The notes under the pieces were generated by a model. That model had not been told where the DNA came from. It saw nothing but the letters and a program-made list of their open reading frames with translations, and searched no databases. Below, one piece after another: positions 5,939-41,213 of a DNA stretch of 64,000 bases; position 1 is the first letter of the stretch, and each line of letters begins with the position of its first letter. Source of the stretch: Maridesulfovibrio salexigens DSM 2638 (GTDB lineage: Bacteria; Desulfobacterota; Desulfovibrionia; Desulfovibrionales; Desulfovibrionaceae); contig NC_012881.1 in NCBI RefSeq assembly GCF_000023445.1, forward strand, positions 1,927,501 through 1,991,500. Direction: 5' to 3'. The translations under genes and the position numbers were made by a program.

Positions 5939-7108
5939 ATGGATTCGAATTTGGATGTTTTGATTTATGCCCATGATGGACGGGGGCTGGGACATGTTAG
6001 CCGCAGTGTAGGGATCGGTCTTGCATTGCGCCGATTATATCCTGAACTTTCAGTGCTTTTAATTACAGGGTGTTCTACCACTGCTGAGTTGATTGGCGAC
6101 GGGTCTTTAGATTGGATTAAATTGCCATCTTATAAAACCAACGTCACTGCCGGGAAATCTTCCGGAGTAAAAGGCGACTCCAACATTGACGATAAGCTGC
6201 TTGGGGAACTTAGAGCACAAAACATCCGAGATATTATAGAGGCATACAAGCCTAAGGTTTTTCTTGCAGACCACACGCCTCAGGGTAAACACAAAGAATT
6301 GCTGCCGTCACATGATGTTTCGCCGGAAACTGTACGTGTTTTAGGAATCCGTGCTGTTGTCGGGGAAGTAGGCAAGGTCTGGTCTGATTTCTCTGCCGAT
6401 GTTTTTGCCGCTACCTATTCAAACATTTTTTGGTATGGAGATTCATCCGTAGCCGGGGCAGGAGAACTTGAACGTTTGAATGAACACTATGGTGTTAAGC
6501 CGCATGAGGTCGGTTATGTGTCCCGTTTATCCGAGTTGCGGTTTTTGAATAACGGCAATGATGACAGCAGCAGACTTGCCGGAGTTATTTCTGTGCCTTG
6601 GTCCGGTGAAGGTTCTTCTGTGCTTTTGGATAAATTGGCGCAGGCTCTCGGTAATGTCGATGTGTCCCATGGTGATTGGAAAATTTATATGAATATGCGT
6701 GAGCGCGAAGCTATGGCGGCGGTCGATAGTTTCAATGGGCTTGAGCATGTCAGGTTTGAGCAGGTTGGGCCGCAATTTCTCAGCGATTTACGCAATTCTC
6801 GCAGCGCGGTTATCTATGGCGGCTACAACAGTCTGACTGATGTGATGGTTTGTAATGTTCCTTCGCTTGTTTTATTGCGTGGGATGAAGGATGGCGAGCA
6901 GGAAGATCACGCAGCAGTGCTGGCCGGAAGGTCATCTGCAATCCAGAATGTGTTTTCCGATCAGACAGTAACTGTTGAGGAGCTGCGCGAATCACTGCTT
7001 AAATGTTTGAATGCGGATGTGGATGAGTCTTTAATAAATTTAGATGGAGCTGAAAATGCGGCCCGTTATCTGGCGGAGCTTGCAGGAGGGTGTAGTGCTG
7101 ACCGCTAG
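5939..7108 (+). CDS. MurG-like glycosyltransferase (COG4671-type)
   Basis: This 389-residue protein opens with YAHDGRGLGHVSRSVGIG, nearly the same signature as the divergent neighbour (GLGHIRR). In the C-terminal lobe it has VIYGGYNSLTDVMVCNVPS, the counterpart of GGYNTICEIL. The middle region differs clearly from the two minus-strand paralogues, so this is an old duplication, not a recent copy. An SD-like stretch (AAGG) lies just before the ATG. The downstream methyltransferase start lies inside its last codons, so the pair is one transcription unit. Confidence 0.8.
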   Translation: MDSNLDVLIYAHDGRGLGHVSRSVGIGLALRRLYPELSVLLITGCSTTAELIGDGSLDWIKLPSYKTNVTAGKSSGVKGDSNIDDKLLGELRAQNIRDIIEAYKPKVFLADHTPQGKHKELLPSHDVSPETVRVLGIRAVVGEVGKVWSDFSADVFAATYSNIFWYGDSSVAGAGELERLNEHYGVKPHEVGYVSRLSELRFLNNGNDDSSRLAGVISVPWSGEGSSVLLDKLAQALGNVDVSHGDWKIYMNMREREAMAAVDSFNGLEHVRFEQVGPQFLSDLRNSRSAVIYGGYNSLTDVMVCNVPSLVLLRGMKDGEQEDHAAVLAGRSSAIQNVFSDQTVTVEELRESLLKCLNADVDESLINLDGAENAARYLAELAGGCSADR

Positions 7109-7808
7109 TCCCGAATTGAGGAAGAAATTGCGCGGGTTGACTAAGGAATTATCCCGCCATGAAATGAAACAGTGGAAGAAAATCCTAGAGCCGCTTGATC
7201 GTAATATGCGTATCCTTGAGGTCGGTTGCGGACGGGGCGGAAAGACCGATTTCTTGCGGGCGCAGGGGTTCAGCAATATTCTCGGAGTTGAGAAAAATGA
7301 ATTTCAGGTCCGTGAATGCTGTAAGCGTGGTTTGAACGTTGTTACCCTTGATGAATTCGCAGAGCAACACAGCTCGGATAAATTCGATTTTATAGTTCTT
7401 TCTCACATTATCGAGCATTTTGATTTCGCAAGGCTTGTTGAATTTATTGATGGTTATCTGGCTCATCTTAAACCGGACGGTTTGTTATTGATTGCCACTC
7501 CTATGCTTCATCCTCATTTTTGGTTGGATCTGGATCATCAGAAACCTTATTATCCGCAAGGTATAAAGAATTTTTACAGTGGTGCGAATGAGCAGGTAGG
7601 GTTTACTTCAAAGTATTGCCTTAAGCTTAAAGATATCCGCTTCAGGAAAAGTCCGTTTCGGGTAAAGAATGACCGTAGCCTACTATTAAAGAAGAACGAT
7701 CTGCCGATGTTGCTGTTAAATGTGGTTGGTGCAGCATTATTTAAAGTAAGTTTTTCCTTGCTGGGATTTAAAAGTGGATGGGTTGGACTATATAAGATGC
7801 GTACCTGA
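7095..7808 (+). CDS. Class I SAM-dependent methyltransferase
   Basis: The protein contains motif I of class I methyltransferases, ILEVGCGRGGKTDFL, then the acidic post-I residue in GVEKNEF and motif IV-like FDFIVLSHIIEHFD with an H-I-I-E-H signature shared with UbiG/Methyltransf_11 enzymes. I chose the GTG at 7095 because a strong Shine-Dalgarno GGAGG (7085-7089) lies five bases upstream, giving 237 residues and a 14-base overlap with the upstream gene. An ATG at 7044 is in frame but would overlap by 65 bases without a ribosome site. It probably methylates a sugar or lipid-linked glycan; the substrate is unknown. Confidence 0.8.
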   Translation: MLTASPELRKKLRGLTKELSRHEMKQWKKILEPLDRNMRILEVGCGRGGKTDFLRAQGFSNILGVEKNEFQVRECCKRGLNVVTLDEFAEQHSSDKFDFIVLSHIIEHFDFARLVEFIDGYLAHLKPDGLLLIATPMLHPHFWLDLDHQKPYYPQGIKNFYSGANEQVGFTSKYCLKLKDIRFRKSPFRVKNDRSLLLKKNDLPMLLLNVVGAALFKVSFSLLGFKSGWVGLYKMRT

Positions 7809-7848
7809 GTTGCATTTATTGAAAAAAGTGCTTGCGTATGATTTATAG

Positions 7849-7877
7849 TTGGACTATTGCTTTTTGAACGTTTTAAT
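7849..7877 (+). promoter_or_regulatory. Candidate sigma-70 promoter of the ilv leader
   Basis: TTGGAC (7849-7854), a 17-base spacer and TTTAAT (7872-7877) lie about 33 bases upstream of the leader-peptide start. The placement suits transcription of the leader, attenuator and ilvBN. It was found by eye in AT-rich DNA, so other hexamer pairs nearby are possible. Confidence 0.4.
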
Positions 7878-7909
7878 TTTTATACGGATTTTTTAAGAGA
7901 AGAACTGAA

Positions 7910-8029
7910 ATGCTACTATCTACCCTCGACCATATGAACGCCGTCGTCGCAACCGTCACCAACGTGGTGATGGTCGTGATTTCTGTCGTGGTCGTGCGAG
8001 GCTTAAGTGAGCCGGAGGGAAGGTTGTAA
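7910..8029 (+). CDS. ilv operon leader peptide (39 aa, valine-rich)
   Basis: A short frame starts at ATG 7910, preceded by AGAGAAGAA, and ends at TAA 8027-8029. It encodes 39 residues, of which 11 are valine, 5 leucine and 1 isoleucine. Four valine codons in a row (7985-7996) follow pairs at 7943-7948, 7964-7969 and 7973-7978. It is followed by a strong intrinsic terminator and then ilvB. This is the organisation of enterobacterial ilvB and ilvG leaders, where stalling at branched-chain codons under amino-acid starvation stops the terminator forming. The peptide itself need have no function. The mechanism here is inferred from codon content and RNA pairing. Confidence 0.85.
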   Translation: MLLSTLDHMNAVVATVTNVVMVVISVVVVRGLSEPEGRL

Positions 8030-8095
8030 GCAGCAGTTTACATTCACAAAGTGTAGTTGTAACCCCCCACCGGCTCAGCCGGTGGGGGGTTTTTT
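8009..8095 (+). promoter_or_regulatory. Transcription attenuator of ilvBN (antiterminator plus terminator)
   Basis: The terminator arms are CCCCCCACCGGCT (8063-8075) and its complement ending in GGGGGG at 8089, followed by six T. Upstream, GAGCCGGAGGG (8009-8019), inside the last codons of the leader peptide, is almost identical to the terminator's 3' arm and can pair with CCC-ACCGGCTC (8066-8076) with one mismatch. A ribosome stalled on the Val run at 7985-7996 would leave 8009-8019 free to act as antiterminator. A ribosome reaching the stop at 8027 would cover it and allow termination. Confidence 0.8.
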
Positions 8096-8126
8096 ATTAT
8101 CATCAGGAAATTGTGAGGGTGCGAAA

Positions 8127-9791
8127 ATGGAAATCAGCGGTGCTAAATTGGTTATTAAACTCTTGGAACAACAGGGGATTGAAATTGTTTGCGGTATCCC
8201 CGGTGGTTCCAACCTGCCCATCTACGATGCCTTAAGGGATAGCTCTATCAAGCATATCCTTGCCCGTCATGAGCAGGGGGCTGGGTTTATGGCTCAGGGT
8301 ATGGCTCGAACTACCGGAAAGGCTGCCGTATGTATGGGCACTTCCGGTCCCGGCGTAACCAATCTACTCACCGCCATTGCCGATGCAAGGCTTGACTCCA
8401 TTCCCGTGGTCGCAATTACCGGTCAGGTAACCAGTACTCTCATTGGGACGGATGCTTTCCAGGAGGTTGATACTTACGGCCTGACCATTCCTATTACCAA
8501 GCATAATTTTCTGGTTCAGTCCGCAGCCGATCTGCTGGAAATTATTCCCGAAGCTTTCAGGCTTGCTGAGTCCGGCAGACCCGGTCCTGTTGTTGTTGAT
8601 ATTCCTAAAGATGTTCAAAAAGAAATCATCGAGATTTCCGAAATTCCGAATGCTATTTTTCGGAAGCCGGAGAGAGCTGAAGGTGATGCAGAGTTGATCG
8701 AGAAAGCAGTAAGCATGATCAATAATGCCCGCAGGCCTATCATTTATGCCGGGGGTGGTGTTGTTGCTGCTGATGCTTCTGCCGATCTGCTTAAGTTTGC
8801 GCGCAGAAACTCCATTCCGGTTGTAACGACTCTTATGGGCCTTGGCGCATTTCCTCACGGAGATTCCAACTATCTGGGCATGCTCGGAATGCATGGTTCC
8901 CGTTCTACGAACATGGTTATGGAAGAAGCGGATTTGATTATTGCACTGGGCGTTCGTTTTGATGATAGGGCAGTTGGTAAAGCCTGCGAATTCTGCAAGC
9001 ATGCCGATATACTGCATATTGATATCGACCGCTCTGAAATTGGGAAAATCAAGTCTTCCAACCTTTCCATTGTTGGTGATGTTGGACATGTTCTGCACGA
9101 ACTGGTTGAAAAGGTTGAAGTTTCAATCAGGATCGGATGGAGTGCACGCATTGCGTCCATTCGGATGATGTACCCGGATATCCGTCCTGATGAGCAGGAT
9201 ACTTTCCACCCGCTCAACTTGATTCGGGTAATGGGCGAGACACTTCCCGATGATGCTATTATTACCACTGACGTAGGCCAGCACCAGATGTGGGTTGCGC
9301 AGGGGTATCCCTTCCGCAAGCCTCGGACTTTGCTGACTTCCGGCGGGCTCGGAACTATGGGCTTCGGTTTGCCTAATGCAATTGGTGCGGCTTTGGCTAA
9401 GCCGGACAAGAAGGTTGTCTGTGTTAGTGGTGACGGTTCTTTTCTTATGAACATTCAGGAGCTTGCCACCCTTGCTGAGCAGCGTTTGAACGTTAAGGTT
9501 CTGATCATGAACAACAATCGGTTGGGACTGGTTCGTCAGCAGCAGGAGTTGTTTTTTGAAGAGCGTTTCTTTGCTTCAACCTTTGAAAGCAATCCCGATT
9601 TTGCATCTATCGCCAGAGGGTTCGGGCTTCCTTCATTTGATCTCGGAGAGCAGGAAAATCCGGAATTGTTCCTGCGTAAGGTTCTGGGACAGGATGGACC
9701 GTGCGTAATCAATATCCCCATTAATTTTGAAAACAAGGTTCTCCCCATGGTTCCGCCTGAGTGCGCCAACAGGGAAATGATAGGAGGCTAG
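8127..9791 (+). CDS. ilvB: Acetolactate synthase large subunit
   Basis: This 554-residue thiamine-diphosphate enzyme condenses two pyruvates, or pyruvate and 2-oxobutyrate, in the first common step of valine, leucine and isoleucine synthesis. The N-terminal domain has CGIPGGSNLPIYDAL and RHEQGAGFMAQG with the cofactor-activating glutamate near residue 49. The C-terminal domain has the diphosphate/Mg site VSGDGSFLMNIQELATL with the following NNN near residue 463. I chose ATG 8127 because GAGGGT lies upstream and homology starts there; the longer open frame crosses the attenuator. ilvN follows after two bases. Confidence 0.95.
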   Translation: MEISGAKLVIKLLEQQGIEIVCGIPGGSNLPIYDALRDSSIKHILARHEQGAGFMAQGMARTTGKAAVCMGTSGPGVTNLLTAIADARLDSIPVVAITGQVTSTLIGTDAFQEVDTYGLTIPITKHNFLVQSAADLLEIIPEAFRLAESGRPGPVVVDIPKDVQKEIIEISEIPNAIFRKPERAEGDAELIEKAVSMINNARRPIIYAGGGVVAADASADLLKFARRNSIPVVTTLMGLGAFPHGDSNYLGMLGMHGSRSTNMVMEEADLIIALGVRFDDRAVGKACEFCKHADILHIDIDRSEIGKIKSSNLSIVGDVGHVLHELVEKVEVSIRIGWSARIASIRMMYPDIRPDEQDTFHPLNLIRVMGETLPDDAIITTDVGQHQMWVAQGYPFRKPRTLLTSGGLGTMGFGLPNAIGAALAKPDKKVVCVSGDGSFLMNIQELATLAEQRLNVKVLIMNNNRLGLVRQQQELFFEERFFASTFESNPDFASIARGFGLPSFDLGEQENPELFLRKVLGQDGPCVINIPINFENKVLPMVPPECANREMIGG

Positions 9792-9793
9792 TC

Positions 9794-10066
9794 ATGTGTA
9801 AGCATAATTTTGTTATTGATCTGTTGGTACGCAACCATGCGGGGGTAATGAGTCAGATTACCGGTCTTTTTTCCCGTAGAAACTTTAACCTTGAGGGAAT
9901 TATCTGTGGCCCTGTTGGAGATGGCGGACAGAGCCGGATGATTCTTACCGTTGCCGATGACAGCAAGCTTGAACAGATCATGCTGCAACTTGAAAAATTA
10001 TACGATGTGCTAAAAGTGGAGCAGGTTGAGGGGCATCCGCTCACTGAGGTTTTGAGTCAGCTTTAA
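9794..10066 (+). CDS. ilvN: Acetolactate synthase small (regulatory) subunit
   Basis: This 90-residue protein is essentially a single ACT domain: LLVRNHAGVMSQITGLFSRRNFNLEGI carries the conserved glycine and asparagine that bind valine in IlvN/IlvH. It is close in length to the short IlvN type and lacks the C-terminal extension of IlvH. It activates the large subunit and confers feedback inhibition. ATG 9794 is set by GGAGG at 9783-9787; ilvB stops at 9791, so the two are tightly coupled. Confidence 0.93.
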   Translation: MCKHNFVIDLLVRNHAGVMSQITGLFSRRNFNLEGIICGPVGDGGQSRMILTVADDSKLEQIMLQLEKLYDVLKVEQVEGHPLTEVLSQL

Positions 10067-41119: not shown

Positions 41120-41213
41120 TGGCGGAAGTGTATAGGAGTCGAACCTACCGACGAGGGTTAACCCGTCCACTGGATTTGAAGTCCAGGCGCAACACCGGTT
41201 ACGATACACTTCC
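41120..41213 (-). tRNA. selC: tRNA-Sec (anticodon UCA)
   Basis: On the minus strand the sequence starts GGAAGTGT (41213-41206) and ends ACACTTCC-G-CCA, giving the eight-base acceptor stem of bacterial tRNA-Sec. The anticodon arm CTGGA-CTTCAAA-TCCAG carries TCA, which reads UGA, and is the same as in E. coli selC. The long variable arm (GGACGGGTTAACCCTCGTC) and TTCGA of the T-loop fit. At 94 bases it is long, as expected. It implies selenoproteins and SelA/SelB elsewhere in the genome. Confidence 0.97.

Follow-up and report, generated by a model that had tools for sequence, protein, structure and literature searches.

Positions 7910–8095 of the window, the 64,000-nucleotide stretch of the Maridesulfovibrio salexigens DSM 2638 genome analysed here, very probably form a ribosome-mediated transcription attenuator that responds to the charging of tRNA-Val and stands before ilvBN, which encodes the enzyme that opens valine synthesis. 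A valine-rich leader frame with a run of control codons, two mutually exclusive helices and the conservation of these parts can be read directly from the DNA. The principle is known from gut bacteria, and the same device is widespread among the relatives of M. salexigens: a valine attenuator that matches neither an Rfam family at gathering score nor the IvbL models is nevertheless found before 108 of the 113 AHAS-I genes examined in the order. For Desulfovibrionales it offers a rule for the regulation of branched-chain amino acid synthesis that can be tested, along with many candidate leader genes and comparative data on control-codon choice.

The leader frame (7910–8029, forward strand) comprises 39 codons, 11 of them for valine, and encodes the peptide MLLSTLDHMNAVVATVTNVVMVVISVVVVRGLSEPEGRL, with the stop codon at 8027–8029; it aligns without gaps in 17/17 rows of the genus alignment. 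The control codons, read from this frame as VVMVVISVVVV, span 7964–7996 on the forward strand and end in four consecutive valine codons (7985–7996). The length, the valine content and the fourfold run had been claimed in an earlier sequence-only reading, and the list of open reading frames and the translation bear all three out. The 64-kb window has a single run of four GTS codons, against 0.02 expected. Leaders were detected as short open reading frames with at least five Val codons in 12 and a terminator 5–60 nt after the stop. The leader reaches a count of eight, and none of the 842 control windows taken from this 64-kb stretch fires the detector, a figure that applies to the 5-in-12 level only and not to the looser level of four Val in 12. 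As in peptide-leader attenuators, the run codes for an amino acid to whose synthesis the following operon contributes. The sequence UUGUAA at the leader stop (8024–8029) is repeated just 5′ of the terminator (8057–8062), and GUUUACA (8036–8042), located between the two copies, is able to pair with either; these elements could possibly form another small hairpin that separates the antiterminator from the terminator.

The first gene after the leader, ilvB (8127–9791, forward strand), encodes the large subunit of an AHAS-I-type acetolactate synthase, and ilvN (9794–10066, forward strand) encodes the small subunit, with an ATG start and an alternative open GTG at 9761. The best NCBIfam matches are acetolactate synthase models, NF006016 for IlvB (849 bits, just below the cut-off of 870) and NF006036 for IlvN (98.7 bits, cut-off 128); the scores exceed the cut-offs of TIGR00118 and TIGR00119, and Pfam is consistent with this. 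As in the IvbL family, the gene behind the leader is an AHAS-I ilvB, identified as such by the IlvB tree described below. This genome carries another gene for an AHAS large subunit (L002, G000:C1:2634423-2636102), which belongs to a different IlvB clade; no Val leader was detected in the 450 bases before it. The window also contains a selenocysteine tRNA gene on the minus strand (41124–41213, 82.5 bits).

An intrinsic terminator (8061–8095, forward strand) lies between the leader and ilvB, with a stem of 14 pairs (8061–8074/8078–8091) and a U tract at 8090–8095. The strong hairpin described in the sequence-only reading is present, although the limits given there (8063–8095) were too short and missed two base pairs at the base of the stem. 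The 5′ strand of the antiterminator, GAGCCGGAGGG..GGUU (8009–8025, forward strand), lies inside the last codons of the leader, and its 3′ strand (8061–8076, forward strand) is the left arm of the terminator plus two loop bases. The pairing of 8009–8019 with that arm, proposed in the same reading, holds: 10 of 11 positions of GAGCCGGAGGG pair with 8066–8076, which is part of the left arm plus the two loop bases, with one A–A mismatch, and GGUU (8022–8025) can add four pairs with AACC (8061–8064). The antiterminator excludes the terminator and, assuming a typical ribosome footprint, is placed where a stalled ribosome would expose it and a terminating one would cover it. The coordinates and the pairing likewise agree with the claim that leader, antiterminator and terminator stand at the right spacing. 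A putative protector strand, CCCUC (7923–7927, forward strand), pairs with GAGGG (8015–8019) in the minimum-energy fold and could do so if no ribosome were present; this helix is a predicted one only. Promoter scans before the leader gave nothing convincing. A weak candidate found by eye, TTGCGT-17-TATTGC (7832–7860, forward strand), in which CTTG[C/A] is kept in 17/17 genus rows, was missed by a consensus scan, and another scan picked other, equally weak sites.

The region folds strongly, with −89.1 kcal/mol for 7900–8100 versus −59.1 ± 4.4 kcal/mol for shuffled sequences (z-score of −6.9, 0/200). Folding of the nascent chain was started at 8009, to represent the RNA left free by a ribosome stalled on the Val codons. 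With the 3′ end anywhere between 8076 and 8086 inclusive, the lowest-energy fold contains the complete antiterminator; from 8087 onwards it is the terminator. Because RNA polymerase hides roughly a dozen nascent bases, it would already be at or past the U tract when the terminator takes over. Equilibrium folding gives −41.0 kcal/mol for the terminator versus −32.5 kcal/mol with the antiterminator forced, a difference of about 8.5 kcal/mol; since the terminator is predicted to be the more stable at equilibrium, the model implies that control of the switch must be kinetic and not equilibrium.

From these features we infer that the leader is translated and that the position of the ribosome would set termination in response to valine. 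A ribosome would follow RNA polymerase along the 39-codon frame. With ample valine it would reach the stop codon (8027–8029) with its body over 8009–8025, the terminator hairpin (8061–8091) would form, and most transcripts would stop near 8095. If Val-tRNA were short, the ribosome would stall in the Val run (7964–7996), leaving 8009–8025 free to catch the left arm of the terminator once it is made, and the polymerase would continue into ilvBN. With no ribosome on it, the leader could fold on itself, burying the antiterminator strand and leading to termination.

An orthologous ilvB, with 71–100% identity, is present in 17/17 genus genomes searched (own genome included), and all of these keep the leader, the Val runs, the terminator and the antiterminator core CCGGAGGG, which is invariant. 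Loss of the codons or stems in close relatives, which the sequence-only reading had named as evidence against its proposal, is not seen in these 17 genomes. Codons 35–36 of the leader (CCG GAG) are invariant in 17/17 genus rows, and third positions are most conserved in codons 34–39 (94–100%, with a mean of 73% for codons 2–18 and 86% for codons 19–30), as expected if the tail codons are kept for RNA pairing. In the antiterminator, 93.8% of alignment cells are paired and 2/14 pairs show two-sided change; 8/500 shuffles reach the covariation score and 28/500 the pairing percentage. The terminator likewise has 93.8% of cells paired and two-sided change in 2/14 pairs, with 0/500 shuffles reaching its score; a control slid by +1 gives a covariation score of 0.063 versus 0.057 for the real register. 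Of the two signs anticipated from an alignment of relatives, conserved Val codon runs are clear, and covariation of the stems is modest within the genus because the helices hardly vary.

Beyond the genus, close IlvB homologues (E up to 1e-160) were found in 107/199 genomes of the family and in 133/297 genomes of the order, two samples that overlap; the genus, family and order searches together named 138 genomes, and the loci of 113 were analysed. A Val-rich leader with a terminator precedes the AHAS-I-type ilvB in 108/113 order loci at the 4-in-12 level and in 95/113 at 5-in-12, and Val-containing frames are still present in the five loci that fail the detector (L130, L131, L141, L171 and L172). 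In a sample of the phylum, a stricter IlvB threshold (1e-172) is passed by 20/395 genomes, of which ten belong to other families; leader and terminator are found in 10/10 of the loci from these ten at 4-in-12 (9/10 at 5-in-12). Five loci carry a tandem double attenuator before ilvB, in which each of two Val leaders has a separate terminator (L100, L101 and L191 in the order, f1/g5; L212 in the phylum, f38; and L067 in Breznakibacter); this arrangement is not seen in the present genome.

The pairing of leader tail and terminator arm was compared by swapping in 66 loci dereplicated from 144 (IlvB <80% identical), a set that includes ilvG-type leaders and the doubtful L041. The terminator arm pairs with its own leader tail at a mean of −19.8 kcal/mol versus −16.5 kcal/mol with the tails of others (Wilcoxon p of 4.8e-8, n = 66). 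The difference persists for AHAS-I loci only, leaving out the ilvG-type loci and L041 (p of 5.4e-7, n = 56), and for AHAS-I loci without the genus (p of 2.4e-6, n = 53). The own tail is in the top tenth of partners in 26/66 loci and the single best in only 3/66; it is weaker than the median swapped partner in 8/66 (L129, L148, L150, L158, L162, L165, L174 and L066), or in 9/56 when AHAS-I loci alone are compared.

Conservation within the genus would also suit a small hydrophobic protein that stands alone and has a terminator to itself, with a separate promoter after 8095 serving ilvBN: the frame is ungapped in all 17 rows, and Val-rich peptides can be membrane-active. Across the order, however, the length, start and N-terminus of the peptide vary widely while the Val run, the antiterminator and the terminator stay, as judged by eye; moreover, conservation in the tail is highest in the codons that pair with the terminator, and the Val codons are selectively the disfavoured ones, which makes such a protein very improbable. 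There is next to no likelihood that the terminator merely ends the upstream operon and that the Val run arose by chance. The hairpin does lie about 250 bases past the last gene of that operon (7044–7808) on the same strand, but 108 of the 113 order loci combine a terminator with a Val-rich frame ahead of this gene, and no control window does so at the stricter detector threshold.

The strong fold of the long leader (z-score of −6.9) could be that of another sensor, whether a riboswitch, a T-box or another ligand- or protein-binding leader, to which the Val codons would be secondary. We give this only a very small chance: Rfam searches at gathering score, of the whole window and of 7800–8200, gave no match in the leader region, and conservation falls on the codon run and the two mutually exclusive helices. 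Matches to SECIS_1 (7925–7990, 27 bits versus a gathering score of 35) and to His_leader (7956–8097, 24.3 bits versus 49) are below threshold.

The Val codons of the run differ from those of the genes. In the genus, the run is written with GTG (0.68) and GTC (0.27), versus mainly GTT (0.59) and little GTG (0.08) in ilvB. Codon usage in 34 long frames of the window leans the same way as in the genus ilvB (GTT 0.41, GTG 0.17), and the present leader, with six GTC and five GTG, differs from these frames (Fisher p of 2.8e-5). Elsewhere in the order, ilvB favours GTG (0.61) and the run is mainly GTA (0.50) and GTC (0.37), the GC-rich genera using GUA and GUC. The preferred Val codon of ilvB is under-represented in the run in 32/36 genus-level groups (the exceptions being f20/g130, f20/g73, f108/g290 and f38/g157), many of which have a single locus; the groups are related and their counts small, and ilvB stands in for genome codon usage. 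In the enterics the preferred codon is barely lowered (0.52 versus 0.57). The relative codon usage of leader residues is 0.75 for Val versus 1.46 for the others pooled, and it falls below 1 in 28/36 groups for Val and in 0/36 for the pooled others. Val is the sole leader residue written on average with disfavoured codons; RNA folding may constrain leader codons. General avoidance of GUU was considered and rejected: the GUU share is below that of ilvB in 17/17 genus loci and 7/7 enteric loci, but in only 37/91 loci of the rest of the order, and avoidance of the Val codon preferred by each lineage fits better.

PMC1183508 takes the view that the codons most sensitive to starvation serve as control codons, and warns that rarity alone is an oversimplification; the pattern of Val codons in the leaders agrees in direction with this view. 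The tRNA genes read in this genome (9/78 matches, all of at least 81 bases, were left out) include three for tRNA-Val(UAC) and one for tRNA-Val(GAC). Genus g21 writes its control codons mostly as GUC, and one of its genomes (G141) carries an additional tRNA-Val(CAC) beside a tRNA-Asp (L274/L268), seen in a search of this and four other genomes by similarity to one tRNA-Val(UAC) only; this tRNA might bear on control-codon choice.

The position of the stop codon distinguishes the genus. The stop lies inside the predicted antiterminator in 82/91 order loci outside the genus (5 of 96 left out), in 7/10 phylum loci and in 8/12 others (L032 left out), and in 0/17 genus loci. The motif in these relatives is often GCGCC-N-UAG-CGGG, with a peptide ending ..AP-stop. 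L196 and L197, placed with the genus in the IlvB tree (SH-aLRT of 97), have GCG CCG AUG GGU.. in this register (..APMGVR/..APMGLG), and the genus has AAG/GAG CCG GAG GGA AGG UUG UAA (..KPEGRL). On this reading of the register, the stop would have turned into a sense codon, making the leader four codons longer. Stops outside the antiterminator also occur elsewhere (9/91 order, 3/10 phylum and 4/12 other loci), and the genus form is therefore a variation and not a new principle.

A quick maximum-likelihood tree of 131 IlvB proteins, with SH-aLRT support only, places the loci of the genus, the order and the phylum in one clade of 63 rows with the enteric AHAS-I (L021–L027; SH-aLRT of 99). This clade also holds single loci from Accumulibacter, Treponema, another spirochaete, Fibrobacteres, Myxococcales and Breznakibacter. 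Leader and terminator are found in all of its members except L032, which has a Val-rich frame and a hairpin without a U tract; the order and phylum rows were picked among loci with a detected leader, and rows L020–L099 regardless of leader, as the best 80 among the matches listed. The other 68 rows comprise 23 that group with gamma-proteobacterial genes, which we take to be ilvG-type and of which 14 have mixed Ile/Leu/Val leaders, and 45, including L002, with a leader match in L041 alone (a marginal 4-Val match). In the proteins compared, the valine attenuator tracks the AHAS-I clade across phyla.

The enteric ilvB attenuator of L024, from the last codons to the terminator, was compared with others against shuffles. 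At p up to 0.01, it resembles those of 27/47 phylum representatives outside the genus, 3/3 genus members and Accumulibacter, and 0/14 ilvG attenuators. This likeness makes common descent of operon and attenuator probable for the phylum representatives, the genus, Accumulibacter and the enterics. The sequences give no support for relating the enteric leader to those of spirochaetes, Fibrobacteres and Bacteroidetes (0/4 similar), which may be convergent. It is somewhat more probable than its opposite that AHAS-I ilvBN and its Val attenuator are an old unit passed between phyla together, with control codons re-tuned in each lineage to those that the host ilvB avoids (GUG/GUC in the genus, GUA in GC-rich relatives and GUC in some others). 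If so, the leaders of ilvBN would represent a series of natural experiments on the selective-charging theory of control codons.

The sequence-only reading had considered this layout little documented in Desulfovibrionales. The open-access literature searched, which leaves most subscription papers outside its scope, agrees: it yielded no account of an ilvB attenuator in Desulfovibrio or the deltaproteobacteria. PMC2965389 (2010) states that, ermC apart, no leader-peptide system was known outside Proteobacteria and Actinobacteria before its own hisS case, and its main text mentions neither Desulfovibrio nor ilv. In a 2013 survey that covered ten Desulfovibrionales genomes (PMC3766115), only four amino-acid attenuator motifs were then searchable in Rfam, those for Ile/Val being absent; attenuators were suggested to have possibly arisen in gamma-proteobacteria, with very few horizontal transfers.

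Among known systems, the closest is the ivbL attenuator of E. coli and Salmonella ilvBN (PF08049 IlvB_leader, NF007579), which shares the IlvB clade and a Val-run leader. Both have a C-rich terminator arm, CCCCGCCGGCG in the enteric loci L021–L027 and CCCCCCACCGGC here, and in both the antiterminator overlaps the last codons of the leader. However, the enteric leaders of L021–L027 end in ..AP-UAG, whereas the present leader ends in ..EPEGRL-UAA and its antiterminator lies wholly in sense codons. The peptide matches neither PF08049 nor NF007579 even at E up to 10, compared with 72.6 and 78.7 bits, respectively, for the Escherichia leader of L024. The ilvL attenuator of gamma-proteobacterial ilvGMEDA (AHAS II) also represents ribosome-mediated attenuation before an acetolactate synthase gene. 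The mixed Ile/Val/Leu leaders found with the same detector are presumably ilvL; they differ from the mainly Val codons here, belong to the other IlvB clade, and none of the 14 such attenuators resembles the enteric ilvB attenuator at the same p threshold. Attenuation by ivbL has been measured with reporters, and its UAG stop has been noted, in PMC5373646. Leader-peptide control of ilvBN is also reported (PMC10272879, PMC11857589) for the actinobacterial ilvB-II/ilvBNC attenuator of Corynebacterium. Judged by its sequence features, the attenuator before ilvBN belongs to the known peptide-leader type, with ivbL as its known relative and an ordinary principle.
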